Shown here: piece by piece, positions 3,193-26,307 of the stretch
Position numbering within the stretch: position 1 is the first letter of the stretch
Layout: each line of letters begins with the position of its first letter
Assembly (NCBI GenBank): GCA_017619675.1
Contig: JAFZRX010000008.1
Location: 119,162-183,161, forward strand
From: Bacteroidales bacterium
GTDB lineage: Bacteria > Bacteroidota > Bacteroidia > Bacteroidales > UBA932
Reading direction: 5' to 3'
Length of the DNA stretch: 64,000 nucleotides
Position numbers and translations under genes: made by a program
Notes under the pieces: model-generated
What the model was told of the DNA's origin: nothing
Database searches by the model: none
The model's input: the letters and a program-made list of their open reading frames with translations, nothing else

Positions 3193-4107
3193 ATGGGGAA
3201 AGATTACAGAAAATATCGTGATGGTAGTCTTCATCACGTTTTTTGCAAAGCAGTTGACGGAAATATCCTGTTCTATTCGGTCCAGGACTGCATCTTTTAC
3301 TTGACACTGTATTATGTCCTGGCCAAAAGGTATGGGATAAAGACGCTTGCATTTGGAATAATGCCTAATCATGTCCATTCTTTTGAACGGGCTCCGTCTC
3401 TGAAGAAATTCAACCTGTTTCACTGTCGGTTGAATTCAGAATTCACTCAAGGATATAACAAACAACATAACCGGTCCGGTGCCGTTTTTATGAAACCTTT
3501 CGGCTATGCGCCCAAAACCGTAGGTAAGGTGATAAGGGATTGTATATCATATATCGCCAATAATCCCGTGGCCGGAAACCAGGTTTCGAGAGTAGAAGAA
3601 TCAAAATGGAACCTTGTGGGATATTGGAAATCTGACCATCCGTTTTCTGAAAAGATCCAGTTGGAGAAGGTATCTCGTAGAATGAGAAGAGCTGTTGAGA
3701 AACTCCGCCAATATCATAGGGATAACTGTCCGTTGGACTATACCCGACAAAGGGAGTTATTCAAAGAACTGACGTCAAAGGAGAAATACCAACTGATAGA
3801 TAGGATTGTGTCTATGTACAACTGTCTGGATTATGACGCCGCAGCCAGTTACTATAATGGAGATTTTGCTAATGCAATCATTTCTATATCAGCCAATTCA
3901 GGAAAAGAACATGATGTCCCGGACGATTACGAGGACTACAGTGTTTATAATAAGATGATTCAGATTGCCACCAGTTGCGGAATAGCTCCGCTGACTTGCA
4001 ATTATGAAAATAGCCCAGCCGATATGATTAATGACCTGAAGAATCTATTCCGAAAGGCCGGATTTCAGGCCAGGCAGATTCAAAAGTTTCTGCATCTGAA
4101 GAGGTAG
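3193..4107 (+). CDS. Y1 transposase of the REP-associated (RAYT / IS200-like) class
   Basis: A 304-residue protein. The HUH-type metal motif is visible as MPNHVHSF near residue 57, and the catalytic tyrosine is probably in GYNKQHNRSGAVF near residue 90-100, as in RAYT enzymes that nick and rejoin single-stranded DNA at palindromic REP repeats. The C-terminal half (about 170-304) is a basic helical region that classical IS200 TnpA (about 150 residues) lacks. No tnpB is present. Direct repeats of 12 bp at 3007 and 4110, plus hairpins, flank the gene. It stands between the phosphatase gene and the capsule promoter and appears intact. It may be domesticated rather than an active insertion sequence. 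Confidence 0.82.
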   Translation: MGKDYRKYRDGSLHHVFCKAVDGNILFYSVQDCIFYLTLYYVLAKRYGIKTLAFGIMPNHVHSFERAPSLKKFNLFHCRLNSEFTQGYNKQHNRSGAVFMKPFGYAPKTVGKVIRDCISYIANNPVAGNQVSRVEESKWNLVGYWKSDHPFSEKIQLEKVSRRMRRAVEKLRQYHRDNCPLDYTRQRELFKELTSKEKYQLIDRIVSMYNCLDYDAAASYYNGDFANAIISISANSGKEHDVPDDYEDYSVYNKMIQIATSCGIAPLTCNYENSPADMINDLKNLFRKAGFQARQIQKFLHLKR

Positions 4108-10290: not shown

Positions 10291-10890
10291 ATGAGTAAGT
10301 TTGGAAAATTTATTAAGCAGATAAACAGGCCCTTCAGCGTAATCCCTTTGCATAAAATGGCCTTCTTCCTATGGGGCTCATTTACATTGTTTGGTGGTTT
10401 AATAGGTATTATAGTCAGCATACTTAAGCACTGGCTATTCGCTGGATGTTCTTTCCCTGAGGCTGTGTTTATAGAAACTCAGAATGGCTCGTTCTATACT
10501 TACTCCATTGCAATGTTAGCAGCTGTTTTGAGTACTGTCTTCATTAACTTTTCAGAGCAGCAAGAAATTGCGTTTAGAAGATACAAGATACCAACGATAA
10601 CCTTTTGTATATTCGTCCTCTTTTTTGGAGGCATCTTCTACGCTCTTAGTTTTGATTCTAAAGCCACGGGGACCGTTTATAACGCCTATTCTGGCTTTGT
10701 GATTGACTGGAAACAATTAGTTGTTTTTATCCTGTCAATGATACTCTCCATTTATTCTTTCTGTGTGTGCAGATTAGATCAGCATTCTGATGAGTTCCAA
10801 GATATTGCGGATAACTATAACACTACCACAGAGTTAGATGATTCTATAGAGAATTACTTAGATATATTTGATCAGAATAACTTAAACTAG
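10291..10890 (+). CDS. Four-TM membrane protein of unknown family (cassette A)
   Basis: A 199-residue protein with four hydrophobic segments at about 24-46, 70-90, 104-125 and 145-164, and an acidic, Asn-rich cytoplasmic tail. I do not recognise the family. It is AT-rich compared with the kinase gene 24 bp upstream and is followed 5 bp later by a 138-residue gene and then by a P-loop NTPase. KAP-type NTPases usually carry their own TM insertions; this one does not, so this protein may be the detached membrane partner. That is inference from neighbourhood. Confidence 0.55.
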   Translation: MSKFGKFIKQINRPFSVIPLHKMAFFLWGSFTLFGGLIGIIVSILKHWLFAGCSFPEAVFIETQNGSFYTYSIAMLAAVLSTVFINFSEQQEIAFRRYKIPTITFCIFVLFFGGIFYALSFDSKATGTVYNAYSGFVIDWKQLVVFILSMILSIYSFCVCRLDQHSDEFQDIADNYNTTTELDDSIENYLDIFDQNNLN

Positions 10891-10895
10891 CATAC

Positions 10896-11312
10896 ATGAG
10901 CCTTATTCGTTCTTTCGAGATATTTCTCGAGCAAAATAATACTCCAATTCATCAAAAAGATGAAAAAAGAATAGTCTTCAAAAAGGATGATCTTTATTAT
11001 GTATTTCTTTATGATGATCAAGACCCTGTTTATTTTCGGTTAGTTTTACCGAAAGTAGACTCTATTGATAATTCTGATGGAGAGAAACTTCAAAAGCTGT
11101 TTAATTTGTCTGCGAAGTACAAGGGCGGCCAAATATATCTATTTGATAAAGATGTTTGGCTTTCCGTTGAATTATTTGTCATTGATCCAGAAATTGATAC
11201 CTCACCCTTATATAAACGAGCATTAGATATTTTGAAAAGCATGTATGATGATTATCGTCGGCTCTTTAATGAAATAGATGATAATGGAGAGGAAGAAAAG
11301 AAGGAGGAATAA
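10896..11312 (+). CDS. Small acidic protein, unknown (cassette A)
   Basis: A 138-residue soluble protein, strongly charged, alternating beta-like stretches (YVFLYDDQDPVYFRLVLP, IYLFDKDVWLSVELFVID) with a helical acidic C-terminus ending EEEKKEE. The fold suggestion is a small alpha/beta sensor or chaperone-like domain, but I cannot name a family. It starts 5 bp after the four-TM gene and shares its AT-rich composition, so the two are probably co-transcribed. No catalytic motif is visible. Confidence 0.5.
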   Translation: MSLIRSFEIFLEQNNTPIHQKDEKRIVFKKDDLYYVFLYDDQDPVYFRLVLPKVDSIDNSDGEKLQKLFNLSAKYKGGQIYLFDKDVWLSVELFVIDPEIDTSPLYKRALDILKSMYDDYRRLFNEIDDNGEEEKKEE

Positions 11313-11437
11313 ATACACTTGTTTCTTAAAGACTTTGGAATAGAGTAATTGAGAAGTAATTCATGTATTGTTATCGAGAATGACTCAACCATTTATAAGA
11401 GTAAAGATGAATAGACCTTTATTCAAATAAGAATAAT

Positions 11438-12796
11438 ATGGAAGAAGAATTTCGTATAGATATAACTCCGCAATTGGAGGATTTCGCTCATCAACTTGAG
11501 AGGGACAACCGTGTAGTATTCTCTGCAGGGTTTGGTGATGGAAAGACTTTTTTTCTAGATGAGTTTAAGAAGAAGTATAGTAAAGACTACTTCTTTTTCA
11601 CAGTATACCCTGTAAACTATGTTATCAGCGAAAATGAGCATATCATTGAGTATATAAAGAGGGATATTCTAATTCAGCTTGCTGATGACCAAGGCTTATA
11701 CTATGATAAGATTAAGCCCAAAGAGGTATTGAAAGCTATAGCAAATAGTTTTTCAATAAAAGATATAGCTTCTTTTGCTCTCGGTTTCCCTTTTTTGTCA
11801 AAGCTTTCTTCCTCACTCGCTAGTGTAGAAGTTTCTTCTCTAGGTTCTGTTGCCGAACAACTCAGCGAGTCGCATTACTCAACAAACAAATACCGAGATA
11901 GTTTCAATTATCGGGGTTCTATTTATGAAAGTGATGCATATACCTCCTTCATTGCTCGTTCTCTTGAAAACCTACGGAAACTTGATGGCCGTAAGACAGT
12001 CCTTATTATAGAAGATTTAGATAGGATAGAACCAGGAAAGATTTTCAATATCTTGAACGTTTTTGCAGCCCATGTAGATAGACATTTTGTGTCAAAGACA
12101 AGTGATAAGACTGAGAATAAATTCGGTTTTGACAAGATAATCACAGTAATGGATAATGTCAAAGTAGAGAAGTGTTTCAATCATCTCTATGGAGAAGACC
12201 AAAATTATCAAGGTTATATATCTAAGTTTATGGAATCACGCCCATTTGAGTATTCCATAAAACAACTAGCAGTTCATTCAGTATCAAGAAAACTGTATGA
12301 CCAATTACTTCTAAAAGAAGATTATCCTCAAGTACTGGATGTTATTAACGCATTGCTCATAGATAGAAGCATCAGAGATTTAGAGAGGATTTATAATTAT
12401 AATCCAATAGACCAAATTAGATCTGATGCCGACAGGCAAATAGGAAACTACCGTATTTCAAAACAGTCTCCACTTTTCAAATATGAAGCGTATGATATCG
12501 TTTTCAAAATAGATTTGCTTGGAGCTTTATTAACAGGCAGTAATAGAGTTACTAATGATTATGTGTATTATCAACTAACAGCAACATATGCATCATTAGC
12601 ACATAACAAAACAGTAAATTTGGCTCTATCACATGATCTATATAGATTCTATGAAGAATACGATAATCAAGGGTTTCTCTATACCTCTGTGGAAAAAACA
12701 TATACCGTGAATCCTCCTTATGGTAAAGAGTATTCTTTAAAATCCAGTGAGGTTGAGCGTGTTAGAAATCAAATCAGAGAGATGTGTTTCCAATAA
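11438..12796 (+). CDS. KAP-like P-loop NTPase (cassette A)
   Basis: A 452-residue protein with Walker A GFGDGKTFFLDEF near residue 29-41 and Walker B VLIIEDLDRIEP near 190-200. Together with the long helical C-terminal half (about 260-452), this fits P-loop NTPases of the KAP/STAND group, many of which are found in phage-exclusion contexts. Between Walker A and B a Ser/Leu-rich segment (about 108-145) could associate with membrane but is not a clear TM helix. The 125-bp gap before it shows no exact TAnnTTTG box. The gene ends 38 bp before the true start of fnlA, so the whole cassette is inserted between wzc and fnlA. Confidence 0.6.
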   Translation: MEEEFRIDITPQLEDFAHQLERDNRVVFSAGFGDGKTFFLDEFKKKYSKDYFFFTVYPVNYVISENEHIIEYIKRDILIQLADDQGLYYDKIKPKEVLKAIANSFSIKDIASFALGFPFLSKLSSSLASVEVSSLGSVAEQLSESHYSTNKYRDSFNYRGSIYESDAYTSFIARSLENLRKLDGRKTVLIIEDLDRIEPGKIFNILNVFAAHVDRHFVSKTSDKTENKFGFDKIITVMDNVKVEKCFNHLYGEDQNYQGYISKFMESRPFEYSIKQLAVHSVSRKLYDQLLLKEDYPQVLDVINALLIDRSIRDLERIYNYNPIDQIRSDADRQIGNYRISKQSPLFKYEAYDIVFKIDLLGALLTGSNRVTNDYVYYQLTATYASLAHNKTVNLALSHDLYRFYEEYDNQGFLYTSVEKTYTVNPPYGKEYSLKSSEVERVRNQIREMCFQ

Positions 12797-12834: not shown

Positions 12835-13860
12835 ATGTCCATTTTCCAAGACAAAGTCCTGATGATCACTGGCGGCACCGGCTCCTTTGGAAACGCAGTC
12901 CTCAAGCGTTTCCTAGCCACCGACATCAAAGAGATCAGAATCTTCTCACGCGACGAGAAAAAACAGGATGACATGCGCCACGAATACCAGGCTGCCTACC
13001 CTGACGTGGCAAACAAGATTAAGTTTTACATAGGCGACGTCCGCGACAAATCCTCTTTGAAGGCCGCAGTACATGGAGTAGATTACATCTTCCACGCCGC
13101 AGCCCTCAAGCAGGTCCCCAGTTGCGAATTCTTCCCCATGGAAGCCGTCAAGACCAACGTGATCGGCACTGACAACGTCCTTGACGCCGCCATAGAAGAG
13201 GGCGTCAAGTGCGTCATCTGCCTCTCCACGGACAAAGCCGCCTACCCCATAAATGCCATGGGCATAAGTAAAGCTCTCGAGGAAAAAGTCGCCGTAGCCA
13301 AGAGCCGCAACTCCTTGAACACAAGGATTTGCTGCACCCGCTACGGTAACGTCATGTGCTCCCGTGGCTCCGTCATCCCTCTCTGGATAGACCAAATCAA
13401 AAACGGGCAGCCCATCACAATCACCGAGCCCACCATGACCCGCTTCATCATGTCCCTAGACGAAGCCATCGACCTGGTTCTCTTCGCCTTTGAATACGGT
13501 CAGAACGGCGATATCCTGGTCCAGAAGGCCCCTGCCTGCACCATCCAGACCCAGGCCGAAGCCGTCTGCGAGCTCTTCGGCGGCAACAAGGCCGACATCA
13601 AGGTCATCGGCATCCGCCACGGCGAAAAGCTCTACGAAACCCTCCTCACCAAAGAGGAATGCGCAAAGGCCGAAGACCTTGGCAACTTCTACCGCGTCCC
13701 CGCCGACAACCGCACCCTCAACTACGACAAATACTTCACCGAAGGCAACCTCAACGCCGTCACCATAGAGGAGTTCAACTCAAATAATACCCGGCGGCTG
13801 ACCCTGGAAGAAACTAAAGCCAAGATTGCATTCCTGGATATTATAAAGAATGATTATTAA
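12835..13860 (+). CDS. fnlA: FnlA/CapE/WbjB UDP-GlcNAc 4,6-dehydratase/5-epimerase
   Basis: A 341-residue short-form SDR. The ATG at 12835 (MSIFQDKVLMITGG) is preferred; upstream in-frame codons to 12784 lack family resemblance. The NAD motif is GGTGSFG near residue 13 and the catalytic region is LSTDKAAYPINAMGISKALEE (SxxK with the MGISK element). The C-terminal GIRHGEKLYETL segment is characteristic. The enzyme performs the first step to UDP-L-FucNAc; FnlB and FnlC are at 48535-50893. A degenerate partial second copy lies at 16350-16589. GC-rich compared with the cassettes on both sides. Confidence 0.92.
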   Translation: MSIFQDKVLMITGGTGSFGNAVLKRFLATDIKEIRIFSRDEKKQDDMRHEYQAAYPDVANKIKFYIGDVRDKSSLKAAVHGVDYIFHAAALKQVPSCEFFPMEAVKTNVIGTDNVLDAAIEEGVKCVICLSTDKAAYPINAMGISKALEEKVAVAKSRNSLNTRICCTRYGNVMCSRGSVIPLWIDQIKNGQPITITEPTMTRFIMSLDEAIDLVLFAFEYGQNGDILVQKAPACTIQTQAEAVCELFGGNKADIKVIGIRHGEKLYETLLTKEECAKAEDLGNFYRVPADNRTLNYDKYFTEGNLNAVTIEEFNSNNTRRLTLEETKAKIAFLDIIKNDY

Positions 13861-13970: not shown

Positions 13971-14786
13971 ATGGCTGTTACTATGATTAGAGATATTCAA
14001 AACGAGATTTGCGGTGCCATAGAAGAGGCTTATGATGTCATTAGCAAGAGAGACTATAATGCATTTATTCTGTTGATAGGACGGGCAGAAATCCAGAAGG
14101 GACTTAAAGCTATAGTTGGAACAGACTTGGTTATGGAGTATAAATGGGATATCTACCTTGACGAAACACGTTCCCAATTCTATATCAATTATCTTAATAA
14201 AAATTACTCTAGAGATGGTTATGATTACCCCCAAGAGACCGCCATTAACGATATAACAACTGAGATGATCATCTATTCCCATTTGTGGGACTCGAACTAT
14301 TTTATGAAATCACTCTATAGGATTGCGGCCATTATTGCGGGAAAAGGATATATATGGGAATCCGTTCTTCCTAATAGAGAAGTGCATATTCATTTTAGAG
14401 ATAATGTTATTAAGCCACTGAAGGACAACAAGTTAAGACTTGGAGATATTATAGAGAAAGCGTATCATTCAAGTATTAGGAATGCCTTTGCACATTCACG
14501 CTATCACATAGACTTATGTACAAGGAGGATAGATATTCGTCCCAAAAGTGGTTACAATAGTTTTTCTTTTAAGGAATTTCAGCAGATATTTCTCTATTCC
14601 TCCATTTTAATGAACAAGATGGAGAACTATCAGGAGATGAACCATAACGAGGCTGCGAGAAAGAATACAGCACTTACTGAGCCATTCCTTACTCCTGATG
14701 GAGTCAAGGTACAAGTGTTTGGCAGAATGATTCAGAGAGGAGAAGAACAGTATCCCGAGTTTAGATTAGCAAGAATAATAGAATAA
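13971..14786 (+). CDS. HEPN-domain protein (cassette B)
   Basis: A 271-residue, mainly helical protein. Near residue 174 it has RNAFAH inside SSIRNAFAHSRY, an exact RxxxxH signature of HEPN ribonucleases, where the Arg and His form the RNase site. The rest (membrane-free, many aromatic residues) is not assignable to a named family. It begins a three-gene AT-rich group (18 bp to the next gene) inserted between fnlA and a broken fnlA copy. HEPN proteins are frequent toxins or effectors in abortive infection and toxin-antitoxin systems, so a defence role is the leading inference. An alternative start is the ATG at 13983. Confidence 0.6.
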   Translation: MAVTMIRDIQNEICGAIEEAYDVISKRDYNAFILLIGRAEIQKGLKAIVGTDLVMEYKWDIYLDETRSQFYINYLNKNYSRDGYDYPQETAINDITTEMIIYSHLWDSNYFMKSLYRIAAIIAGKGYIWESVLPNREVHIHFRDNVIKPLKDNKLRLGDIIEKAYHSSIRNAFAHSRYHIDLCTRRIDIRPKSGYNSFSFKEFQQIFLYSSILMNKMENYQEMNHNEAARKNTALTEPFLTPDGVKVQVFGRMIQRGEEQYPEFRLARIIE

Positions 14787-14803
14787 ACATTACAATTAGA
14801 AAT

Positions 14804-15733
14804 ATGTCTAAGAAAATAACTCTTTACGCGTATTCGATTGAGAATGAGGATATCTCTCGTCCTTATTCTGATTTTGCACAAAAATTCCATGAAAAACTGA
14901 GTACTACTAAAACAATTCGTCAGAGGTATTATGAAGTCAATACTGAGACAAAAGAAGTTGATGTGTTGTCGAAGTCAGTATGTATGGAAGGAAACATAGT
15001 TTATGGTGCCTTGATGCGTGTCATACCATCTAAAGAAATGCCAGGCCTTCCTGAAGATTATCTTGATAAAGAGGAGATCTCGTTTTCAGAACTCGAGGGG
15101 GCAGGAGTTAATAATGGTAAGATGTCTTGTAAAGACTTGTATTATTTTATACTCGACAACAAGCATGTGGTTACAACTATTCCCAATTCTCGGATATCAC
15201 GGTTTCGTGCTTTTGTGAACCATTTTCTTGGGACAGATTTGTCAGGCAATTTATACAGATTCTCTATTATGATTACACAACCAGAGAATATATTATTGCA
15301 AGACCTGACTAAGATAGAATTTGCAGGGGTAAACCATTCGATAGAATCTTCTAATCAACAAAAAAGTGTTGGTACTCAAGTGTTAGGTATTGCCAAAGAG
15401 ATGCTTCATTCGTTACTGGGCGAAACAGATATTCAGCCCCTTTTAGATAAAAAAATACTCACAGCCAATCTTGTGGTAAAGTTTACAGATAAGGGGAAGA
15501 AAAAAATGAATGAAGATGAGGTCAAACGAGCAATGAGTGCTGTTATAACTAACCTCTCGGAGAATGAAGATGTCAAGTTTTTAACAAAAGATAATAAAAG
15601 AATTAAGGCTGGTGAGACAATACTGATTCATTCTATAGATGTTGATGAAGTAGATAATGGATTGTTGAATGAGATAGATTTGAAAGGCCAGATGCAGGCA
15701 TATCTGAAAGAAATAGTCAATTTGGGTCTATGA
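14804..15733 (+). CDS. Cassette B second protein, unknown soluble family
   Basis: A 309-residue protein without signal peptide or TM segment. It opens with a beta-strand (KITLYAYSIE), has a central alpha/beta region and a C-terminal part with a repeated beta/helix organisation and the basic stretch FTDKGKKKMNEDEVKRAM near 226. The layout of an N-terminal binding-type domain followed by a helical end resembles several uncharacterised defence-associated families, but I cannot name one. The last codons overlap the start of the next gene (ATG at 15730), indicating translational coupling. Confidence 0.5.
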   Translation: MSKKITLYAYSIENEDISRPYSDFAQKFHEKLSTTKTIRQRYYEVNTETKEVDVLSKSVCMEGNIVYGALMRVIPSKEMPGLPEDYLDKEEISFSELEGAGVNNGKMSCKDLYYFILDNKHVVTTIPNSRISRFRAFVNHFLGTDLSGNLYRFSIMITQPENILLQDLTKIEFAGVNHSIESSNQQKSVGTQVLGIAKEMLHSLLGETDIQPLLDKKILTANLVVKFTDKGKKKMNEDEVKRAMSAVITNLSENEDVKFLTKDNKRIKAGETILIHSIDVDEVDNGLLNEIDLKGQMQAYLKEIVNLGL

Positions 15734-16194
15734 AAAAATATATTATTCTAATTGCAGTTTACTTCTTTGCTGGTTTTTTGCTGGCAAATTGTCAAGTGCC
15801 AAGTTCATTGGTAAATACTTTATACACTTTATCAGGTATTATGTTCTCTGTCGGGATGAGTTTGATAGTTGCAGCTAATACTCAAAACATTAGGAATCCT
15901 GATGCCAAGAAAGAAGTACAAGACAATCTCAACGCTCTATTATATCGGTATATTGCCAATTTTCTTACGCTTACAGCAATTTTTGCAGTAACCTTAATAT
16001 TTAAGGTTGATGATAAAGAAAGGTTCCAAGTCCTTTCTTTCAATGTAGGGCATAAAGAATTCGTTTTCAATTATCCTGCGGCTCTTGTGGCATTGGAGAT
16101 AGTGTGTATTCTTTACTACATTATTAATATGATGGATACTCGAAAACAGTTTCAAGACATTGAAACAAAGATAGATCAGGAACAATCAAAATGA
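15730..16194 (+). CDS. Cassette B four-TM membrane protein
   Basis: A 154-residue protein with hydrophobic segments at about 3-20, 31-50, 72-92 and 112-132 and a short charged C-terminal tail. It overlaps the upstream gene by 4 bp, so the soluble protein and this membrane protein are surely made together. A pairing of HEPN effector, soluble partner and small membrane protein is consistent with membrane-linked anti-phage systems, but no homologue is recognised. The first segment could be read as a signal peptide; the LANCQ sequence at residues 18-22 is only a weak lipobox. Confidence 0.5.
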   Translation: MKKYIILIAVYFFAGFLLANCQVPSSLVNTLYTLSGIMFSVGMSLIVAANTQNIRNPDAKKEVQDNLNALLYRYIANFLTLTAIFAVTLIFKVDDKERFQVLSFNVGHKEFVFNYPAALVALEIVCILYYIINMMDTRKQFQDIETKIDQEQSK

Positions 16195-16349: not shown

Positions 16350-16589
16350 CAGAACGGCGACATCCTGGTCCTAAAGGCTCCAGCCAGCACTATCCAGACC
16401 TAGGTCGAAGACCTTGGCAACTTCTACCGTGTCCCCGCCGACAACCGCACCCTCAACTACAACAAATACTTCTCCGAAAGCAACCTCAAGGCCGTCACCA
16501 TAGAGGAGTTCAACTCCAATAACACCCGGTGGCTGAATCCGCAAAAGGCAAAAGAAAAGATAGCGGCGTTAGAGTATCTTAACCAATAA
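16350..16589 (+). pseudogene. Degenerate C-terminal fragment of a second fnlA
   Basis: This stretch is clearly related to fnlA codons around 13501-13860. It starts at the equivalent of QNGDILV and reads in frame to TAA at 16587. Three defects show it is dead: no N-terminal three-quarters, an in-frame TAG at 16400-16402 where fnlA has CAG, and a deletion of about 110 bp joining the two copies of a GCCGAAG-like microhomology. Its last codons (AKEKIAALEYLNQ) differ from the intact copy, so it came from a divergent allele. The rest of the 16195-16791 gap is AT-rich; a small stem CTGTATG/CATACAG at 16303-16319 is the only other structure I see. Confidence 0.85.
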
Positions 16590-16791: not shown

Positions 16792-17901
16792 ATGAACACA
16801 ACACAACATAAGTTAAGGCGCAATTGGAAAAAAAGAAGTCATAATTTTATTATTGAAAAGCAGAAGCGAAGAGCCGCTAAAATAATACGTCAACAGCGTA
16901 AAAAGAAAAGGCGCAAAGGAGCTTTCATAATTAATAGTGAAACAAGGGAAGGAAAACTAAGTAAATTATTTGCAGGATATAAGTTGATAGATGCTCCAAA
17001 TAACTTGTCTTTACTCAACAATGAGAAAGAAACGTTGAACTTCCTTCAGGCATTACAAGTAAATTATGATCAAAGACAAAAAGTTGCCGTATTGCTTGAT
17101 AATGTAAAAGAAATTACAACAGATGCCATAGTTGTACTGTTATCAAATATGGTTCACTATAAAGCGGCGAGGATAGGCTTTAATGGGACAAGACCTAATG
17201 ATCAAAGAATTAGAGCTATATTTGAAGCTTCAGGTTTTTTTAAATATTTATATGGTTTTGCGATTCCCGAGCAGGATACTTATTCATTCAAGAAAATGAA
17301 TAACTATATTTACACTCATGGACAGAAGACTGTGGATGCTAGTTTGGCTGATGATTTAGTAAAATATGCCAGTGAAATTGTATGGGGAGAGGCACGTCGA
17401 TGTCCTGGGATTCAGCGTACTTTAGTAGAATTGATGCACAACACTTACGATCACGCAGGGGAAGAAAAAGGAGAAAAGCACTGGTGGCTCTCTGTAGAAC
17501 ATAACACAGAAGCCCACGAGGCAACTTTTTCTTTTATTGATTTCGGAGTAGGTATCTTTAGAAGCCTTGAAAATAAGAAACCAGGTGAGCCGCTTTACGG
17601 GGCGATGGATTACATTAAACAGCATTTTCCTTTAATTAAAACGCAGGTAGATCGCTTACGTCTTATCTTGGAAGGTAAACTTGTTGAATCTCAATCTAAC
17701 GAGTATTTTAGAGGAAAAGGGTTAGCAAATACGTTTACACGTTTTAATAAAAATCAAATATCAGATCTAGCAATAATATCTAATTATTCATCCATTCGTG
17801 CTGCCAACGAAGACTATCATTCTATAAAGAACGAATTTTTGGGAACTTTTATTTCATTCAAAATGAATTCTAACACTTATTCATTAAAATGGGAAATTTA
17901 G
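16792..17901 (+). CDS. STAS-like plus GHKL ATPase protein (cassette C)
   Basis: A 369-residue protein. Residues 1-45 are very basic (KKRRKK runs), suggesting nucleic-acid contact. About 95-165 resembles a STAS fold (VAVLLDNVKEITTDAIVVLL). The C-terminal part is a GHKL/histidine-kinase-type ATPase: N box LVELMHNTYDHAG near 206, G1 box IDFGVGIF near 249 and G2-like FRGKGLANTF near 303. No phospho-acceptor His or sensor domain is present. The gene overlaps the next one by 13 bp. The ATPase/STAS pairing recalls partner-switching modules, but no sigma factor or PP2C is nearby; the context suggests a conflict system. Confidence 0.62.
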   Translation: MNTTQHKLRRNWKKRSHNFIIEKQKRRAAKIIRQQRKKKRRKGAFIINSETREGKLSKLFAGYKLIDAPNNLSLLNNEKETLNFLQALQVNYDQRQKVAVLLDNVKEITTDAIVVLLSNMVHYKAARIGFNGTRPNDQRIRAIFEASGFFKYLYGFAIPEQDTYSFKKMNNYIYTHGQKTVDASLADDLVKYASEIVWGEARRCPGIQRTLVELMHNTYDHAGEEKGEKHWWLSVEHNTEAHEATFSFIDFGVGIFRSLENKKPGEPLYGAMDYIKQHFPLIKTQVDRLRLILEGKLVESQSNEYFRGKGLANTFTRFNKNQISDLAIISNYSSIRAANEDYHSIKNEFLGTFISFKMNSNTYSLKWEI

Positions 17902-18230
17902 TATTAAGTATCGCAAAAGAATATTCTCGATGCCCAGGAGCACGGTACGAAAGAGAAGGTGATTATTCTGGCGAAAGATTTAGAGAAACGTTACTCTATC
18001 CGAGATTAAAGCAGGCAATTGAAGAAGGGGTGAAATTAGAGGTAATCCTTGATGGTTCTGCTGGTTATAGTACCTCTTTCATTGAGGAATCGTTTGGTGG
18101 CTTGATAAGAACAAATAAATTGACGCTTAAACAGTTAGAGGACAATCTCATCATTATTTCCGAAGAGGATCCGTCTTACCTAGATGATATTAAAAAATAT
18201 TTGAACAATGCGTGGGCGCACAGTTGTTAG
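17889..18230 (+). CDS. STAS-like DUF4325 protein (cassette C)
   Basis: A 113-residue protein whose central segment (VILDGSAGYSTSFIEESFGGLIR, about residues 51-74) matches my memory of the DUF4325/STAS-like family, small proteins commonly encoded beside GHKL ATPases. It starts inside the end of the ATPase gene and its own end overlaps the next gene by 23 bp, so the three are translationally coupled. The likely role is a regulatory partner of the ATPase, by analogy with anti-anti-sigma switches; this is inference. Confidence 0.65.
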   Translation: MGNLVLSIAKEYSRCPGARYEREGDYSGERFRETLLYPRLKQAIEEGVKLEVILDGSAGYSTSFIEESFGGLIRTNKLTLKQLEDNLIIISEEDPSYLDDIKKYLNNAWAHSC

Positions 18231-18819
18231 TATATTGGTAGGAGTTGCTAGTTTTATTATAGGGTGGACTCTATGTGCATCGTTTAATGATTTGTCCTAT
18301 TTTTCACTCGACCAGTCAATAAGCGTGGCAGATGTTTTGTCAATTGTCGTAAATATTCTGCTAGCAATTCTTGTGGCAGTTATGATTGAGCGAGGGATGC
18401 AGAACCAGAGAGTTGAGAAAGATTTTTTTATCTCTGAATTAAACGAAGCGCAACAATCATTTTCCGATTTAGAGAGAATGTGTTCTCGAAACAATTCTCT
18501 TTCTTTACAATTGACAGTATATGAAGTAGAAAAAGCAAAAAAGAATCTCGTTAGAATGTGGAATAATATGGGAGAACAGGAAGGAAATTTCCATAAAAAG
18601 CACAATGATGAGTTTTTGACCTTAATTCAGAACATTAAGACTCTGAATACGCAGTTTTCTGATTCAAATTATTATAAAGATAAAACAGGCTATAAGCCCA
18701 TAACGATAAAGAGAAATCATATTTATTTGAACAATACTGTCAAGCAAGAAATAGGGCGAACTTTTAGCATAATAAAGGATGCTATTTTTCAATTAAAAAT
18801 AGCAATTAACAATATTTGA
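18208..18819 (+). CDS. Two-TM protein with cytoplasmic coiled coil (cassette C)
   Basis: A 203-residue protein with TM segments at about 7-27 and 43-62, followed by a long charged, heptad-like region (about 65-203). No enzymatic motif is visible. It overlaps the STAS-like gene by 23 bp. The arrangement of ATPase, STAS switch and membrane coiled-coil protein suggests signalling to, or damage of, the membrane. I do not recognise the family. Confidence 0.5.
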   Translation: MRGRTVVSILVGVASFIIGWTLCASFNDLSYFSLDQSISVADVLSIVVNILLAILVAVMIERGMQNQRVEKDFFISELNEAQQSFSDLERMCSRNNSLSLQLTVYEVEKAKKNLVRMWNNMGEQEGNFHKKHNDEFLTLIQNIKTLNTQFSDSNYYKDKTGYKPITIKRNHIYLNNTVKQEIGRTFSIIKDAIFQLKIAINNI

Positions 18820-19151
18820 AAGAATCGATACTTTTTAAGTTTATTCTTTCAATGGAGTCTTGATAAGAAGGATTTTCCAATCGAATAGGAGACAGAATAC
18901 CATTGATAAAAGACTATTTAACTTTATCTACTTCTTTCTCCTTCAACAATTAAGAAAGGAGATAATCTTATACTAGTTTTTGGGACCCTGCCAGAGGCGA
19001 TTAAAATGTGCCTTTTGGTGAAGGAGTTCCAGTAGTATCCTGAGGCATTTGAAACAATTGTGCGAAAAAGAGGATAACTCTGGGAGATGTGACAATACTC
19101 AAAGTTTAGATAGTGAGTTTAAAGGTAGTCAAAGGTATCGAAATAGATAAT
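18820..19151 (+). other. Gap between cassette C and capsule assembly genes
   Basis: About 330 bp of AT-rich sequence. A short stretch near 19012-19095 reads as protein-like (VPFGEGVPVV) but is broken by stops, so it may be a gene relic. No exact TAnnTTTG box or clear terminator is seen. Confidence 0.3.
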
Positions 19152-19991
19152 ATGGCAGTATATACCTCTGAAGAATTAAGAGCGGTTCAGCTGATAGAAT
19201 TGGAGGCGCTAAAGGAAGTTGTTAGAGTTTGCGATAAACTATCAATAGAGTGTTTTCTGGTTGGCGGCTCTTGTCTTGGTGCAATGCGTCATGGCGGGTT
19301 TATTCCATGGGATGACGATATAGATGTAGGAATGAGGAGAGAAGATTACGATCGTTTTCTTAAAGAGGCACCGTCTATCTTAAATAACAGGTTCTTTCTA
19401 CAAACGCCTTATACCGACAAGAATAGTGCTTATAGTTATGCGAAAGTCCGAGTAAACGGGACAATGTTCGTCGAGTACTGTAATAGAAAGAATAAAATGC
19501 ATCAGGGCATTTATTGTGATGTTTTTCCTTTTGACAATGTACCTGATGATGACACAAAGAATAAGAAGCAGTTTGTTCGCTTTACGCGTTTAAACTATAT
19601 CTTTTTTTATCGGCAAACTCCGGACGTGTCTTGCCCTCCAAACAGCATAAGGGATCATTTTAAGAGTATTGTTCGTAAGGTTATGCATTATTCTTTAGTG
19701 CTATTTACTAATAAGGAAAGACTATATAGATCTCTATTATCTACAGCAACAGAATACAACGGTAAGGAACAATCATCAGTTGCTTGTTTACACTTCCCTA
19801 AATGGAAGGGAGACGAGATTCTTTTATCAGATTTATATCCTCTAAAAAGTGTTCAATTTGAAGGGATTACAGTCAAAGTCCCAAGAAATGCAGAAAAGTA
19901 TCTTACAACACATTATGGGGATTGGAGAACGTTGCCACCGGAAAGTCAACAAGTAGGGCATAAACCGTATAGAGTAGAGATTTCTAGTTAG
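19152..19991 (+). CDS. LicD-family phosphotransferase
   Basis: A 279-residue protein with the LicD nucleotidyltransferase signature: GGSCLGAMRHGGF, then PWDDDIDVG near residue 54-62, and IYCDVFPFDNV near 123. LicD proteins attach phosphocholine or another phospho-substituent to surface glycans. The start is placed at ATG 19152 (MAVYTSEELRAVQLIELE), matching the usual LicD opening; an in-frame GTG at 19113 would add 13 residues. It is the first capsule assembly gene after the inserted cassettes, followed after 45 bp by the flippase. The phospho-donor cannot be told from sequence. Confidence 0.87.
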   Translation: MAVYTSEELRAVQLIELEALKEVVRVCDKLSIECFLVGGSCLGAMRHGGFIPWDDDIDVGMRREDYDRFLKEAPSILNNRFFLQTPYTDKNSAYSYAKVRVNGTMFVEYCNRKNKMHQGIYCDVFPFDNVPDDDTKNKKQFVRFTRLNYIFFYRQTPDVSCPPNSIRDHFKSIVRKVMHYSLVLFTNKERLYRSLLSTATEYNGKEQSSVACLHFPKWKGDEILLSDLYPLKSVQFEGITVKVPRNAEKYLTTHYGDWRTLPPESQQVGHKPYRVEISS

Positions 19992-20036
19992 TTTTTGCTT
20001 TACAATTATTCTTCTTTGATGGCTCAAAGGTTATAA

Positions 20037-21365
20037 ATGGGTTTACTTGAGAAGTTATCTGTCTTTGTAGTAAAAGGCATTGACCGGTTAAAACAATCTG
20101 ATCTATTCAAAGGTTTTGCTGTGACTACTATCGGAAGTGGCTTGTCCAAAGCCATAATGATAGCAGCCACTTTTTATTGTACCCACAAATTAACTCAAGC
20201 AGAATTTGGAGAATTCTCTTTTATCAACAACACGTTGATAATGATTCTAACCATTTGTGCATCGAATTTTTCCCGTCTTTGTACAAAGTTCGCCACTGAA
20301 GCACACGATTCCAAGGCATCACTTCAGAGACTTTTCATTCTCTTTTTATTCTCCTTGACGGCATGTCTCTTAGCAGGGCTACTAATACTTCTGGTCCCAG
20401 ATAGTATTCTTGAGAGGGTATTTGGCAGTTCTTCAATGCTGTCATTTCTTAGATTTGCTGCTCTGTTATTGCCTTTATTTATGCTAAACCCCTTAATAGA
20501 AGGTGTCCTCAGGGGTTTAATGAGGTTTAAATTAATAAGTACAATCCAAGTATTTGCAGCTCTTTTCTATTTGATTGTTATAATACTTGGCATCTCACTA
20601 GGAGGAGTAAATGGAGCATTGTATGCGCTCTTAATCTACTATTCTGCTTTTGCAATTACCTTTTTTGTATGCTTGATAAAAATAGCACCTCCATCTTCTT
20701 TCGCCCAAAAGTTAAAAGGTTTCATAGAGGAAAGGGGAGTTATTACCAAAATGGTATTACCTGTCTTTATTGCTTCTTTTGTTGAAGCGCCAATGTTCTG
20801 GATACTCCAGGTGCTATTAACCAAATATGACACAGTCGCTTCTGTAGGAGGTATGACGGTGATGAAACAAGTCAGAAACTTCGCTTTGCTAATACCTAAT
20901 TACTTTTTCAATACATACATTGCTTTTGCCGGAAAAAAGAATGCCGAGAAAGACTACTTGGGATACTTTAATCAGTTTGATAAATTGATTAGATATTTTC
21001 TTTTGCTCGGTCTTTTCTTTTTTGTTGTCTTTTCCATATTTAGTAAACCAATCCTGTGGCTTTATCGACCAGAGTATGTGGCCAGTTGGAAGAGCTTATG
21101 CATTTCTAATGCGTGCATACCGATAGCTTTATTGTTAAGTCTTGTAAGAACAGACCTGATACTACAAGAGCATCAAAGAGCACTTCTAATAATCTCCATA
21201 ATATGGAATCTAGCATGGATAGCTGTTTTCTTGTTGTTAGTTAACCAATCAGTTATTCCATTAGAGGCCTTTTTTTATGGAGAGTTAGTTGCTGTATCCG
21301 TACAACTATTGAGTTGCTATCTAATCTATCATCGAGACAAAACCACACTATTAAATGCTGAATAA
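20037..21365 (+). CDS. wzx: Wzx-type polysaccharide flippase
   Basis: A 442-residue integral membrane protein with about 12 hydrophobic segments throughout and short charged loops, the size and pattern of O-antigen/capsule flippases of the MOP superfamily. The N-terminal region (TTIGSGLSKAIMIAATFYCTHKLTQAEFG) is typical of the polysaccharide biosynthesis branch. It would move lipid-linked repeat units across the inner membrane for the Wzy polymerase at 22661. Its stop codon region overlaps the start of the next glycosyltransferase at 21365. Confidence 0.9.
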   Translation: MGLLEKLSVFVVKGIDRLKQSDLFKGFAVTTIGSGLSKAIMIAATFYCTHKLTQAEFGEFSFINNTLIMILTICASNFSRLCTKFATEAHDSKASLQRLFILFLFSLTACLLAGLLILLVPDSILERVFGSSSMLSFLRFAALLLPLFMLNPLIEGVLRGLMRFKLISTIQVFAALFYLIVIILGISLGGVNGALYALLIYYSAFAITFFVCLIKIAPPSSFAQKLKGFIEERGVITKMVLPVFIASFVEAPMFWILQVLLTKYDTVASVGGMTVMKQVRNFALLIPNYFFNTYIAFAGKKNAEKDYLGYFNQFDKLIRYFLLLGLFFFVVFSIFSKPILWLYRPEYVASWKSLCISNACIPIALLLSLVRTDLILQEHQRALLIISIIWNLAWIAVFLLLVNQSVIPLEAFFYGELVAVSVQLLSCYLIYHRDKTTLLNAE

Positions 21366-22648
21366 TGGACGGTCAAGAAAGAAGAATTAAAATAGTTGCA
21401 GCCCATCCTGGTAGGCAGCATTCTTTTCGTGTGGCAACAGCGTTAAAAGAAGCAGGATTGTTGTACAAATATGCCACAACGGTTTATGATAAGGACACAT
21501 CATTCTTGATGAGAGTTGTTAAAAAACTTCTCAATAAAAATAATCTGGCTAGAGCGAATAAAAGGAAATGTCCTTCTCTCCAGGATGAGGATGTTATTCA
21601 ATTCTGCGAATTCGGAGGATTGCTTCTTTTATTGATGATCAGATTAGATAAAAGCCATATTATCAGCAACTGGTATGGTGGACGAATATCTGTTAGATTC
21701 CAAAAGAGATTAACCCGTTTTATTATAAAAGAGAACGTGGATATGGTTATTTCCTATGACACGAACTCTAAGGTCTTGTTTCAATTGTTAAAAGAGAAAG
21801 CTCCTAAAACCATCTTAGTTATGGATAATGCACACCCTAACAGGCATTATCTGAATTATGATTATCATCGTTATTGGGATAGTTGTGGAGGTTTTGCGGA
21901 GACCCTTAAAGCTTGCGGTTATCTTGTTGATGAAAAGACAGCGCAATCTTTTGGGGACGAAATAAAAATGGCTGATTATCACATAGTTGCTTCCTCTTAT
22001 AGCAAAGAAGCATTGCTATTTGATGGTGTTAAGCCAGAGAGAATATTCAAGATTCCTTATGGTGTTGATTCGAATCGCTTTATTAATTCAGACAGGTCTT
22101 ATGCTATAGGGAAACTCAATGTTTTATTCGTTGGAGAAGTTAATCAGAGGAAAGGAATTCGTCAAGTACTTGAGGCGGCCAAGATAATAAGTTCTCCAGA
22201 TGTTGTGTTTAATATTGTAGGATCAGGATCAGACCATTGCAAGTACTTATACGAACCATACAAGCAATATGTAAATCTTTGGGGATTTGTTTCATATGAT
22301 GAGTTATTAAGGCAATTCCGGGAAAACCACCTTTTTCTATTTCCCACGATGGGAGAGGGCTTCGGCTTAGTCTTATTAGAAGCGATGGCGGCAGGATTAC
22401 CTGTTATTACAACGGCAAACTGCGGAGGTGCAGATATCGTGGAGGAGGGAACTAACGGTTTCATTGTTTCGGTTGGGAGTACAGAAGAGATAGTCAAAGT
22501 TTTATCCTGGGCGAAAGAGCATCCCGATAAACTAGAAGAGATGTCAAAAGCGGCAAGGGAAACAGCTCATAAATATACGTGGGAAAGATATAACCAAGGA
22601 ATAGTAGATGCGGTTAATAGAATCTATCTAAGCGCTCAAGAAGGATAG
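21365..22648 (+). CDS. GT4-family glycosyltransferase
   Basis: A 427-residue GT-B enzyme. The C-terminal donor domain shows VLFVGEVNQRKGIRQVLEAA near 258 and the GT4 EX7E-type motif EGFGLVLLEAMAAGLP near 335. The N-terminal acceptor domain is unusual in carrying a Lys-rich insertion and a DNAHPNRHY segment near 157. It starts on the last base of the flippase stop region, so it is coupled to it. It probably adds one sugar of the capsule repeat; donor and linkage unknown. Confidence 0.85.
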   Translation: MDGQERRIKIVAAHPGRQHSFRVATALKEAGLLYKYATTVYDKDTSFLMRVVKKLLNKNNLARANKRKCPSLQDEDVIQFCEFGGLLLLLMIRLDKSHIISNWYGGRISVRFQKRLTRFIIKENVDMVISYDTNSKVLFQLLKEKAPKTILVMDNAHPNRHYLNYDYHRYWDSCGGFAETLKACGYLVDEKTAQSFGDEIKMADYHIVASSYSKEALLFDGVKPERIFKIPYGVDSNRFINSDRSYAIGKLNVLFVGEVNQRKGIRQVLEAAKIISSPDVVFNIVGSGSDHCKYLYEPYKQYVNLWGFVSYDELLRQFRENHLFLFPTMGEGFGLVLLEAMAAGLPVITTANCGGADIVEEGTNGFIVSVGSTEEIVKVLSWAKEHPDKLEEMSKAARETAHKYTWERYNQGIVDAVNRIYLSAQEG

Positions 22649-22660
22649 TCGGAACTTGGC

Positions 22661-23932
22661 ATGTTACAACCATTATCGATTCTTTTCATTGTTATACTTG
22701 CCATCCTTATAGGAATTCAACTGACAAGAGCATTTGTCTCTCCAGATAAGGCGAAGATATGGTCTCCTTTAACCTTTATTGGAGCGACTTTGGTGTATTA
22801 TATTATTATACCATCTCTTTTTTCAATGAAAGGATATCAGATCAGTAATATCAAAGGGCAGTGGCTTTTTTATTTGAGCGCAGTTCTTTTTTACTGTTTT
22901 GTGTTAGTGGGTTTTCATGTCCAAGTTAAGGGACGATTTCCTAGGTGGAACAAATTGATAACCTCAAACAAAGTGGTGTCGTATGGTTTGTTTCTATTCG
23001 TAATAGCTCTTTTGTGTTATATTCCATTTAGAGGTTTTCGAACAACATTATGGGATAGTGATGCAACGCTTGTAACTGAAAGGACAGGTTTTGTCAGCTA
23101 TTTTATAGATTTAATATCGCTTCTATGTGCCTCTTGCGGATTATTATTGATGGGAGCAAAAAAAGGTGTCAAAATATTAAATCTGTTTTTATTTTTAGGG
23201 GTTTTATATCTAACATTTGTGGTATATGTGGTTGCAGGATTTAGATTTCGCTTAGTCTATCTTGTACTAATACTATTTACTATATATCATCTATACTCAA
23301 GGCCTAAGAGAGTCAATTTTCTTCTTATCTTGGGAGTGGGAATTCCGATCTTCTTCTTATTTGCCGCAATGGATACGTCTCGTAATTACGGAAGAGGACT
23401 TAATAGAGAATCATTACAAGAAATAACCATTGATGAGATGGAAAAAGGATCTCGTGAAAATGCGGCTGTTTTGTATTTTTCCACTCTATGTACGGATTAT
23501 TATAATGACACTAAAGAATATGTTGGATTTGAGCCAATAATTAATGCTGTATTTATGCCTTTCCCACGAGCTCTTTTCCCATGGAAACCTGAAGGCCTTT
23601 ATATTAGGGAAGCACAATTAAAGACACTAGGATCTTATGATGCGGGTGCCGCATTCTTGAGTTTTACGGAAGGTTTTATCTCTTTTGGCTGGTTTGGTGT
23701 GGTATTATATGGGTTCCTAATAGGACTTCTCTCAAGTCTGTTCTGGAGAAACTATGATGAGAACCGGGGATCAATAGGAGCAATTTTGCTTCTTGCCTTA
23801 TTCAACGGTTTTTGTTATCAATGGGTTTCAAGGGGTTATTTAGGAGGGAATCTTAATAGTTTCCTTTATTTTGTCATAGTCCCGTTCTGGTTGTTGTCTA
23901 TAGCTAAGTTCTTTAAGAGGAAGGTTCAGTAG
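22661..23932 (+). CDS. wzy: Wzy-type O-antigen/capsule polymerase
   Basis: A 423-residue membrane protein with about ten TM segments and one long extracytoplasmic loop (about residues 245-330, including RNYGRGLNRESLQEI and PFPRALFPWKPEG). That loop is the usual mark of oligosaccharide repeat-unit polymerases. Sequence similarity in this family is always weak; the call rests on topology, length and position between flippase and glycosyltransferases. It would join repeat units in the periplasm, with chain length set by the Wzc-type protein. Confidence 0.8.
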   Translation: MLQPLSILFIVILAILIGIQLTRAFVSPDKAKIWSPLTFIGATLVYYIIIPSLFSMKGYQISNIKGQWLFYLSAVLFYCFVLVGFHVQVKGRFPRWNKLITSNKVVSYGLFLFVIALLCYIPFRGFRTTLWDSDATLVTERTGFVSYFIDLISLLCASCGLLLMGAKKGVKILNLFLFLGVLYLTFVVYVVAGFRFRLVYLVLILFTIYHLYSRPKRVNFLLILGVGIPIFFLFAAMDTSRNYGRGLNRESLQEITIDEMEKGSRENAAVLYFSTLCTDYYNDTKEYVGFEPIINAVFMPFPRALFPWKPEGLYIREAQLKTLGSYDAGAAFLSFTEGFISFGWFGVVLYGFLIGLLSSLFWRNYDENRGSIGAILLLALFNGFCYQWVSRGYLGGNLNSFLYFVIVPFWLLSIAKFFKRKVQ

Positions 23933-23948
23933 CTATTCTATTTAGATT

Positions 23949-25076
23949 ATGAAGAATGTCTTTGTGCAGAATATCATTTCTCCCTATAGGAATCGTTTTT
24001 TCTGTGCATTAAATAAAGAAGACTTTGATTTCTCTGTTTACTATATGGGGTACACAGAACCAGATAGGAACTGGGATACGTCCAAAATAGAAAGACAGTA
24101 CAATAGTTGGGTAGATACAAAAGGACTATATCTTAAGATAGGGGCTTTAGGAGGACATTTTAACCCCAGGTTAGTTTGGAAAGTATTAGTAGATAAGAAT
24201 ATCAAAAATATTATTCTCGCTGTTTCTTGGAATGATCCCAATATCCTGTTAATCACACTTGTAAAAAGATTGCATTTGACCAAGAAAAAGCTTCATTTTT
24301 GGGCAGAAGCTAATTATACTGCATCTTGGACAAACAAACACAATTCAAGGCTAAAGTGGTGGCTAAAGAGAAGTGTGTTTAATGCAATAGACGGGGCCCT
24401 CATCATTCCTGGAAAAATGTCAAAGATAACTTTTGAAAAATGGGACATAAACAATAAACAGTTCATATATCTCCCAAATACGATAGATGACACTTCCTTG
24501 CATTTTGAACCCAGTTTAAGAAATACAGATGACTTGCCTGTTTTCATCATGCCGATAAGAATTATTGAAAGAGTAAAGGGGGGCCTTAATTTTTTTGAAG
24601 CAATAGGGAAAGAGAATGTTGTACGGGCGCAGTTTATTATTGCTGGAGATGGCGAAGATAAGGATAAGTTCATAGATTATATAAAGGATAATGGCTTTGA
24701 GTCTAATATCAATTTGATGGGCTTTTGTGATTCATTCAAAATGTCAGAGTTATATAGTAAGGCCAATGCTTTTATTCTTCCTTCTTTTTCCGATCCGTCT
24801 CCATTGAGTCTTGTTGAAGCGTTATATTTTCATTTACCCGTTCTATGTTCTGATCATTGTGGGAATCATTTTGAAGCTGTAGAAGATGGCGATAATGGTC
24901 TAACTTTTTCCCCTCTTAGTCCAGATTCTATTAAACTACAATTTGAGCGTTTTATGTTAATGAGAGATAAATGGGAGAGAATGGGAGAGAGAAGCGCTGA
25001 AATCTATAAGGAGAGATTTAATACTGTTTCTGTAATAAAGCAATTTGTAGCAGATTATTCAAAAGTGTCTTTCTAG
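23949..25076 (+). CDS. GT4-family glycosyltransferase
   Basis: A 375-residue GT-B enzyme. It opens with an acceptor-domain start (VQNIISPYRNRFF), typical of capsule GT4s. In the donor domain the pattern FIIAGDGEDKDKFIDYI near 218 and FILPSFSDPSPLSLVEALYF near 275 gives the EX7E-like site, with Asp/Pro-Ser replacing the first Glu, a common variant. AT-rich, 16 bp after the polymerase gene and 13 bp before the next glycosyltransferase. Substrate unknown. Confidence 0.83.
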   Translation: MKNVFVQNIISPYRNRFFCALNKEDFDFSVYYMGYTEPDRNWDTSKIERQYNSWVDTKGLYLKIGALGGHFNPRLVWKVLVDKNIKNIILAVSWNDPNILLITLVKRLHLTKKKLHFWAEANYTASWTNKHNSRLKWWLKRSVFNAIDGALIIPGKMSKITFEKWDINNKQFIYLPNTIDDTSLHFEPSLRNTDDLPVFIMPIRIIERVKGGLNFFEAIGKENVVRAQFIIAGDGEDKDKFIDYIKDNGFESNINLMGFCDSFKMSELYSKANAFILPSFSDPSPLSLVEALYFHLPVLCSDHCGNHFEAVEDGDNGLTFSPLSPDSIKLQFERFMLMRDKWERMGERSAEIYKERFNTVSVIKQFVADYSKVSF

Positions 25077-25089
25077 ATAATTATTATCT

Positions 25090-26307
25090 ATGCCTACTGT
25101 ATTGCATATCAATGTTGCAAAGAATATTGGCTCGACGGGAAGGATTGTAGAACAACTATGTATTCTTGCTAGGACGCATGGATGGGACTCATATGTCGCA
25201 CATGGGTATAGGTATGAAGATAAAGGAGAGGTCAAAGGTATTTTGGTTTCGGGTGCCTATGGAGAGTATCGGCATTACCTTAGAAGTCTTCTTTTAGATG
25301 GCCAAGGTCTGGGATCTAAGAAAGAAACAAGAGATTTGGTTAATTGGATACAAAAGGTTAGACCAGATATTGTTCATTTACACAATATTCACGGATATTA
25401 TATCAACTACCCGATTCTATTTAGGTATTTGTCAGAAAATAGCATACCTATAGTATGGACGTTACATGATTGCTGGCCTTTCACTGGACATTGTGCGTAT
25501 TTCGACCTTATAAGTTGTGAGAAGTGGGAAACACAATGTGATAATTGCCCTCAAAAGGAAAAGTATCCAAAAGCGCTAATTGATAGATCAAAGAGGAACT
25601 ATGAGTTAAAAAAACAATTGTTCACATCTGTTCCAAACATGACAATTGTACCCGTTTCCGATTGGCTTCATGACTTAGTTACGAGATCATTTTTGTCCAA
25701 GTATCCAATCAAGACAATTCACAATGGAATAGATTTGAACATGTTCCGACCCACGGACAGCGATTTCAGAAAAAGAAATGCACTAGAGGGAAAGTTTTTG
25801 ATACTAGGAGTAGCTGATGGTTATGGGGAAAGAAAAGGGTTGTCAGACTTTAACATATTAAGTGAGAGATTTGGCTCGAGAGTAACAATTATTTTAGTTG
25901 GCCTGAATGAGAAAGATAAGAAAAGTGTTTCTCCAAGAATAATGGGAATGGGGCGTACGGCCAACCAGCAAGAATTGATAGAGATTTACTCATCAGCAGA
26001 TGTTTATATTAATCCTACTTACGAGGATAATTTCCCAACAACAAATCTTGAAGCTTTGGCATGTGGCACTCCTGTAATAACCTACCGCACTGGGGGAAGT
26101 CCGGAAGCGGTTGATGAAAGTACAGGCATTGTGATAGAAAAGGGTGATGTTGATGGCTTAGTCCGGGATATTGAAACAGTGAAAAGCAAAGGGAAAGCAT
26201 CCTATGAAAATGCTTGCAGGAAGAGAGCAGAAACGTTCTTTAATAAGCAAGAGCGATTTGGGGATTATATTAGGCTATATGAGGAACTGATAGCGAGGAA
26301 GCATTAA
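25090..26307 (+). CDS. GT4-family glycosyltransferase with Cys-rich acceptor domain
   Basis: A 405-residue GT-B enzyme. The acceptor domain has IVHLHNIHGYYINYPIL near 98, WTLHDCWPFTGHCAYFD near 123 and a Cys cluster (ISCEKWETQCDNCPQ) near 143 that is usual in this branch, known from colanic-acid type transferases. The donor domain has GYGERKGLSDF and the motif EDNFPTTNLEALACGTPVI near 322, where EX7E is visible. It lies in the main capsule operon, 13 bp after the previous transferase. Donor sugar unknown. Confidence 0.85.
   Translation: MPTVLHINVAKNIGSTGRIVEQLCILARTHGWDSYVAHGYRYEDKGEVKGILVSGAYGEYRHYLRSLLLDGQGLGSKKETRDLVNWIQKVRPDIVHLHNIHGYYINYPILFRYLSENSIPIVWTLHDCWPFTGHCAYFDLISCEKWETQCDNCPQKEKYPKALIDRSKRNYELKKQLFTSVPNMTIVPVSDWLHDLVTRSFLSKYPIKTIHNGIDLNMFRPTDSDFRKRNALEGKFLILGVADGYGERKGLSDFNILSERFGSRVTIILVGLNEKDKKSVSPRIMGMGRTANQQELIEIYSSADVYINPTYEDNFPTTNLEALACGTPVITYRTGGSPEAVDESTGIVIEKGDVDGLVRDIETVKSKGKASYENACRKRAETFFNKQERFGDYIRLYEELIARKH

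Follow-up and report, generated by a model that had tools for sequence, protein, structure and literature searches.

The window examined here is a 64,000-nucleotide stretch of contig JAFZRX010000008.1 from a Bacteroidales bacterium, and the subject of the analysis is a run of three genes on its + strand, numbered 1, 2 and 3, within a capsule locus (Table 1). Genes 2 and 3 probably form a Rex-like two-gene phage-exclusion module that is out of its prophage setting and now lies in the capsule locus. The three open reading frames (ORFs) were present with the sizes and the coupled layout given in an initial annotation of the same DNA. At the local GC content of 35%, the probabilities of frames of 271, 309 and 154 codons staying open by chance are 3e-10, 1e-11 and 4e-6, respectively, and homologues were found for each of proteins 1, 2 and 3. 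Genes 1 and 2 are separated by 17 bp on the same strand, and gene 3 begins within gene 2, with an overlap of 4 nt. No protein of the trio reached a curated cut-off in Pfam or NCBIfam or gave a significant match in PADLOC or PHROGs. The annotation had read the trio as a membrane-linked anti-phage system; for genes 2 and 3 this agrees with our results, as the pair has the layout of rexA–rexB and its prophage relatives have the position of rexA–rexB.

Relatives of the pair were found with tblastn and with sequence profiles. Among 50,697 phage records, protein 2 gave two tblastn matches, each covering 98% of the protein, in Acinetobacter phage TCUAN1 (27% identity) and Escherichia phage PhiR68_2 (23%); protein 3 matched the same two records, adjoining the protein 2 relatives. 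A three-row protein 2 profile matched 29 viral contigs (of 156 candidate stretches) and a protein 3 profile 55 (of 144), the two sets overlapping in part. An 18-row protein 2 profile matched five named genome contigs (of 163), from Photorhabdus, Leminorella, an Orbaceae bacterium (two contigs) and Aggregatibacter; viral contigs carry identical copies of the Photorhabdus and Aggregatibacter proteins. Single-protein scans of viral contigs, genome contigs and plasmids with protein 2 gave no match. Of 5426 complete Escherichia coli genomes, 42 carry the PhiR68_2 pair at an identity of at least 99%, always on the chromosome, and at least one of these copies is interrupted by an IS1 element. The pair was not named in the titles and abstract openings retrieved, which came from open papers only. 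PhiR68_2 was used as a test phage in a paper on the nuclease SNIPE, the excerpted passages of which do not mention the pair (PMC13190303).

For the analysis of gene coupling, 97 protein 2 ORFs were merged into 46 distinct relatives by their last 250 amino acids (aa), leaving out ORFs of less than 280 aa (pieces such as those at loci L032, L047 and L090) and the fragment-match loci in genomes G472, G747 and G908. The protein 3 gene follows the protein 2 gene in all 46, and starts between 77 nt before and 3 nt after the end of gene 2. This adjacency is partly a matter of selection, because protein 3 was the means of finding some of the loci. Searching with protein 2 alone gave 40 loci, some of which share a contig, and 37 of these have protein 3; in the other three (L023, L032 and L036, two of them on one contig) the contig stops short. 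Four hydrophobic segments are present in protein 3 (residues 5–23, 31–49, 75–93 and 117–135), in agreement with its earlier description as a protein with four transmembrane (TM) segments, and in its family G36-I-M-F-S40 and G42 are invariant in 40 of 40 aligned rows. The window protein 2 shares 22–32% identity with its relatives in pairwise alignment. The model phrog_3482 (function unknown) matches 11 of 39 protein 2 relatives and adds no function. Weak library matches below the cut-off (UPF0240, DUF5079, CSN8 and others) were rejected as chance, because any one of them was common to at most three family members.

The position of the pair in its relatives is that of an immunity-region module. 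A CI-like gene lies within 1 kb upstream on the same strand in 30 of the 44 distinct pair loci that have more than 1 kb of upstream sequence; the CI profile used was built from up to 11 of the pair-locus repressors, so that these count themselves. In PhiR68_2 the pair comes immediately after cI. Beyond the repressor lie cro, cII, O and P, and the pair is followed, after one small gene, by gam, bet and exo. In TCUAN1 a LexA-like repressor is followed by a gene for a 71-aa protein and then by the pair. The repressors themselves, compared by eye, vary widely from locus to locus, and the pair therefore has the look of a movable module with a constant location and not of a passenger of one phage lineage.

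Within the Bacteroidota the pair is sparsely distributed. Among 101 related genomes and among 393 from the order, two overlapping samples that each contain the own genome, no relative of protein 2 was found outside the own genome. In a sample of 395 genomes of the class, the protein 2 profile matched four: the own genome, G737 and two with only fragments containing a stop. In the family of G737 it matched four of 246 genomes, one of them as a fragment. Full relatives of protein 2 are encoded in genomes G737, G868 and G909, and their neighbours are of phage or defence-like character. Phage genes surround the G909 pair (terminase and AntA/KilAC antirepressor by Pfam). In G868 the setting looks phage-like by eye and includes, by Pfam, an AAA protein and a DUF3164 protein. 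The neighbourhood in G737 (locus L117, 8384–13825) is defence-like, the pair standing beside genes for a UvrD-like helicase, DarT and an ADP-ribosylglycohydrolase.

RexA–RexB of phage lambda resembles the pair family in having a soluble gene followed by a small membrane gene, the product of which has four hydrophobic segments, and the lambda layout cI–rexA–rexB is matched in most prophage relatives, where the pair lies behind a CI-type repressor. The protein lengths are similar (279 aa for RexA and 144 aa for RexB, compared with 309 and 154 aa for window proteins 2 and 3). In lambda the two genes are 15 bp apart, whereas they overlap in most pairs found here, and the window copy has neither an adjacent repressor nor visible phage genes around it. 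The solved RexA structure, with a two-domain RdgC-like fold, is entry 8twq. Overlapping soluble and membrane genes, as in the window, are also found in actinophages (CarolAnn gp44–gp43 and Sbash gp30–gp31). CarolAnn genes 43 and 44 overlap by 26 nt and adjoin the repressor; their products are longer (178 and 370 aa). Defence is proven for CarolAnn: it requires both genes, and the gp43/gp44 pair becomes toxic when triggered by a phage protein (PMC6426606). RexA, CarolAnn gp44 and Sbash gp30 are DNA-binding dimers (PMC11077077). No sequence similarity to the window pair was detectable in either lambda RexAB or the actinophage pairs. Because the layout agrees and sequence similarity was not found, the pair is called Rex-like here rather than a member of the RexA family; it is probably Rex-like in action as well as in layout, and is not a proven RexA family member. 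The overlapping exclusion genes of phage Fc02 were set aside by their description, which is of small proteins upstream of the repressor (PMC9936078).

By analogy with RexAB and the actinophage pairs, protein 2 would act in the cytoplasm as a dimer, detecting phage DNA or a product of the infection and, once triggered, activating protein 3. Protein 3 would then depolarize the inner membrane, the membrane potential would collapse, and infection and cell would be stopped together. The pair probably makes infected cells shut down. Of this model, the coupling of the genes, the location of the relatives and the topology were observed, whereas sensing, DNA binding, depolarization and protection are proposed by analogy. 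Gene 1 would be a neighbouring gene for a HEPN-type RNase, probably recruited separately and perhaps co-transcribed here; its product might add RNA cleavage to the response, or be a toxin that acts alone and arrived separately from the pair's function on this piece of DNA.

A number of results weigh against this assignment. The 39-row protein 2 profile was compared with four RexA sequences, and protein 3 with RexB, using hhalign in local and global modes with reversed sequences as controls. The probabilities were at most 0.2%, and the scores were 13.3 for protein 2 and RexA (12.5 for the reversed control), 11.0 for protein 3 and RexB (14.0) and 14.7 for protein 2 and the actinophage proteins (17.7). 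Profile alignment to RexA and RexB gave z values of 1.7 (10 of 150 shuffles as high) and 1.2 (18 of 150), respectively. No RexA, RexB or DUF4747 model was among the matches of the 39 protein 2 members (PHROGs at E ≤ 0.01, Pfam at E ≤ 0.1) or of the 40 protein 3 members, with the lambda proteins matching as the positive control. The hhalign and profile comparisons lack power here, because lambda RexA gave no signal with its actinophage homologues CarolAnn gp44, Sbash gp30 and Sejanus gp46 either (z = 0.2 in profile alignment). Further points come from the genes themselves. A recognized CI-like gene is missing at 14 of the 44 pair loci, and the window copy, which is outside the 44, has no repressor beside it, so that the arrangement of a soluble gene and then a membrane gene behind a CI-type repressor holds for the family and not for this copy. 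At locus L080 (4974–5441) a protein 3 gene occurs with no detectable protein 2, and the protein 3 of PhiR68_2 has only three hydrophobic segments above the threshold. The window protein 2 sits on a long branch whose grouping with the G909 protein is weak (84/50), and the function of the window protein may for this reason have shifted. Two observations were not counted: the best alignment of protein 2 with RexA, ending at profile column 154 and RexA residue 119, was discarded because 10 of 150 shuffles reach its score, and the similar strand–helix pattern seen by eye at its end was likewise disregarded. The protein 3 gene of L080 stands, by eye, behind a hexapeptide acetyltransferase-like gene.

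Protein 1 was analysed separately. The RxxxxH motif is linked to HEPN RNases, and an exact copy (RNAFAH) had been pointed out in protein 1; it is in frame. At E ≤ 0.01, relatives of protein 1 were found in ten other genomes of 395. Eight of the 11 non-window matches were aligned and one of them (L116, in which the match stops short of the motif) was then left out; three weak matches with stops (L113–L115) remained outside the alignment. The seven relatives retained (278–338 aa) share 17–22% identity with the window protein. R170, H175 and S176 (RxxxxHS) are invariant in all eight members, the window protein included, and the residue after the arginine is asparagine in seven of the eight; eight further columns are invariant elsewhere in the alignment. 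That the motif is conserved between such distant sequences favours a functional RxxxxH site of the HEPN type. Protein 1 and its relatives thus keep arginine and histidine exactly five residues apart as HEPN RNases do, whereas by sequence protein 1 has no significant match to a Pfam family and no match in the PDB that would place it in the HEPN fold. Beside the protein 1 relative at L109 (1189–3121) lies, by eye, an MNT-type nucleotidyltransferase-like protein; a nucleotidyltransferase of this type is a usual partner of HEPN toxins.

The initial annotation had placed protein 1 at the head of a three-gene cassette and had proposed, as the test of this, that the three genes should travel together in other genomes. 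In what was searched they do not. The flanks covered at 101 pair loci, some of them redundant, contained no match to the protein 1 profile at E ≤ 0.1 (ORFs of at least 40 aa), whereas genes 2 and 3 do keep together. The ten genomes with protein 1 relatives differ from the genomes with protein 2 matches (395 of the class were searched in each case, taken as the same draw), and the window is the only locus searched that holds all three genes. Within these searches, the trio is not one travelling cassette. Relatives of protein 1 were absent from the viral contigs and phages searched, and the plasmids gave one weak match (E = 0.3). Protein 1 belongs to a separate Bacteroidia family and is possibly an accessory or independent RNase toxin.

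The same data bear on whether the three genes nevertheless act as one system here, in which the Rex-like pair would sense infection and the HEPN protein would cleave RNA as its effector, in combination with damage to the membrane. The 17 bp gap on one strand, the lack of a + strand terminator-like site between 13700 and 16900 in a simple consensus scan and the invariant R170 and H175 speak for such a system; a promoter scan was uninformative (14 sites, 11.2 in shuffles). With protein 1 missing from the pair loci and occurring in other genomes than protein 2, we regard it as unlikely. The fuller version, a three-part hybrid in which a prophage-freed Rex-like sensor and channel pair has joined a HEPN RNase on the chromosome and is traded between strains along with capsule loci, is also unlikely. 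That the genes serve capsule synthesis or export would fit their place between fnlA and other capsule genes, but their phage relatives sit among phage genes, which makes this hardly credible.

Two further readings concern the action of the pair alone. It might mainly tune the lysogeny switch of its prophages, with exclusion a side effect and the window copy a stranded remnant of no present use. A role of this kind has been described for RexA, a repressor lies near the pair in most loci, and the long branch of the window protein 2 would suit a remnant. Both window frames are nevertheless open and coupled, outside prophages there is no switch to tune, and the G737 pair stands beside a DarT gene; this alternative seems quite improbable. 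The other is an action like that of Kiwa, with which the trio had been compared in outline: protein 3 would sense DNA injection at the membrane and hold protein 2, which would bind the incoming DNA and block its replication with no killing. In Kiwa the gene kwaA comes first and its product has four TM segments, so that the gene order differs from that of the pair. The combination of a four-TM protein and a soluble DNA-binding dimer would be common to both, Kiwa being described in a review as a tetramer of membrane-bound KwaA with DNA-binding KwaB dimers (PMC12904381). By position, however, Kiwa is not the nearest system, as the relatives of the pair occupy the immunity-region place of rexAB. 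In PADLOC, which presumably contains Kiwa models, no Kiwa-named model matched the three window proteins or the 39 protein 2 relatives in a search that had no positive control. We consider a Kiwa-like action very doubtful. The Rex-like module set out above remains the preferred reading for genes 2 and 3.

Few phage exclusion phenomena have been known for as long as that of Rex, yet its relatives are thinly known. The pair would add a second, sequence-distinct family in the rexAB position, with members in Escherichia, Acinetobacter, Pasteurellaceae, Orbaceae and Bacteroidota, and this family is a tractable set for testing how a sensor and a membrane protein cooperate. The window holds such a pair without surrounding phage genes and beside a possible RNase gene, so that a combined mechanism is also testable.

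The three genes are bordered by fnlA-like sequences. The upstream gene is called FnlA-like because it matches PF02719 and scores 509.9 bits with TIGR04130, under the equivalog cut-off of 730. A broken fnlA copy had been reported downstream; this copy is real but diverged, with blocks 16350–16410 and 16402–16564 being 85 and 88% identical, respectively, to the 3′ part of the intact gene (blastn), and about 105 bp of the intact gene are absent between the two blocks. The presence of an intact and a diverged copy suggests that recombination between capsule loci, with fnlA as the site of exchange, gave rise to the stretch. The description of the three genes as an AT-rich operon holds for the composition itself (35.5% GC), but AT-richness is not peculiar to the trio, as the GC content of 19113–26307 is 37%; the trio is one of three AT-rich groups (34–36% GC) between wzc and later capsule genes.

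Table 1. The three genes and the borders of the insert in the window (columns: feature, position, strand, description)
Gene 1 / protein 1	13971..14786	+	271 aa; RxxxxHS motif of HEPN type (R170, H175); separate family; possible RNase toxin
Gene 2 / protein 2	14804..15733	+	309 aa; soluble; RexA position; proposed sensor / DNA-binding dimer
Gene 3 / protein 3	15730..16194	+	154 aa; four hydrophobic segments; RexB position; proposed channel / effector
Intact fnlA-like UDP-sugar dehydratase gene	12835..13860	+	Left border, outside the system; PF02719, TIGR04130 under cut-off
Remnant of a second, diverged fnlA-like gene (3′ part)	16350..16564	+	Right border of the insert, outside the system; blastn

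Other genes in the window were noted in passing. The AT-rich group between wzc and fnlA (10291–12796) encodes a KAP-type P-loop NTPase of 452 aa, with one other match, a weak one, among 101 genomes (own included), and two further proteins, of 138 aa and of 199 aa, the latter membrane-bound by eye. The third AT-rich group, 16792–18819, encodes a 369-aa protein that has no Pfam match and has relatives in two others of the 101 genomes, a 113-aa DUF4325 STAS-like protein and a 203-aa protein (membrane-bound by eye). Upstream of the capsule genes, at 3193–4107, lies a gene that by eye resembles that of a REP-associated (Y1) transposase.
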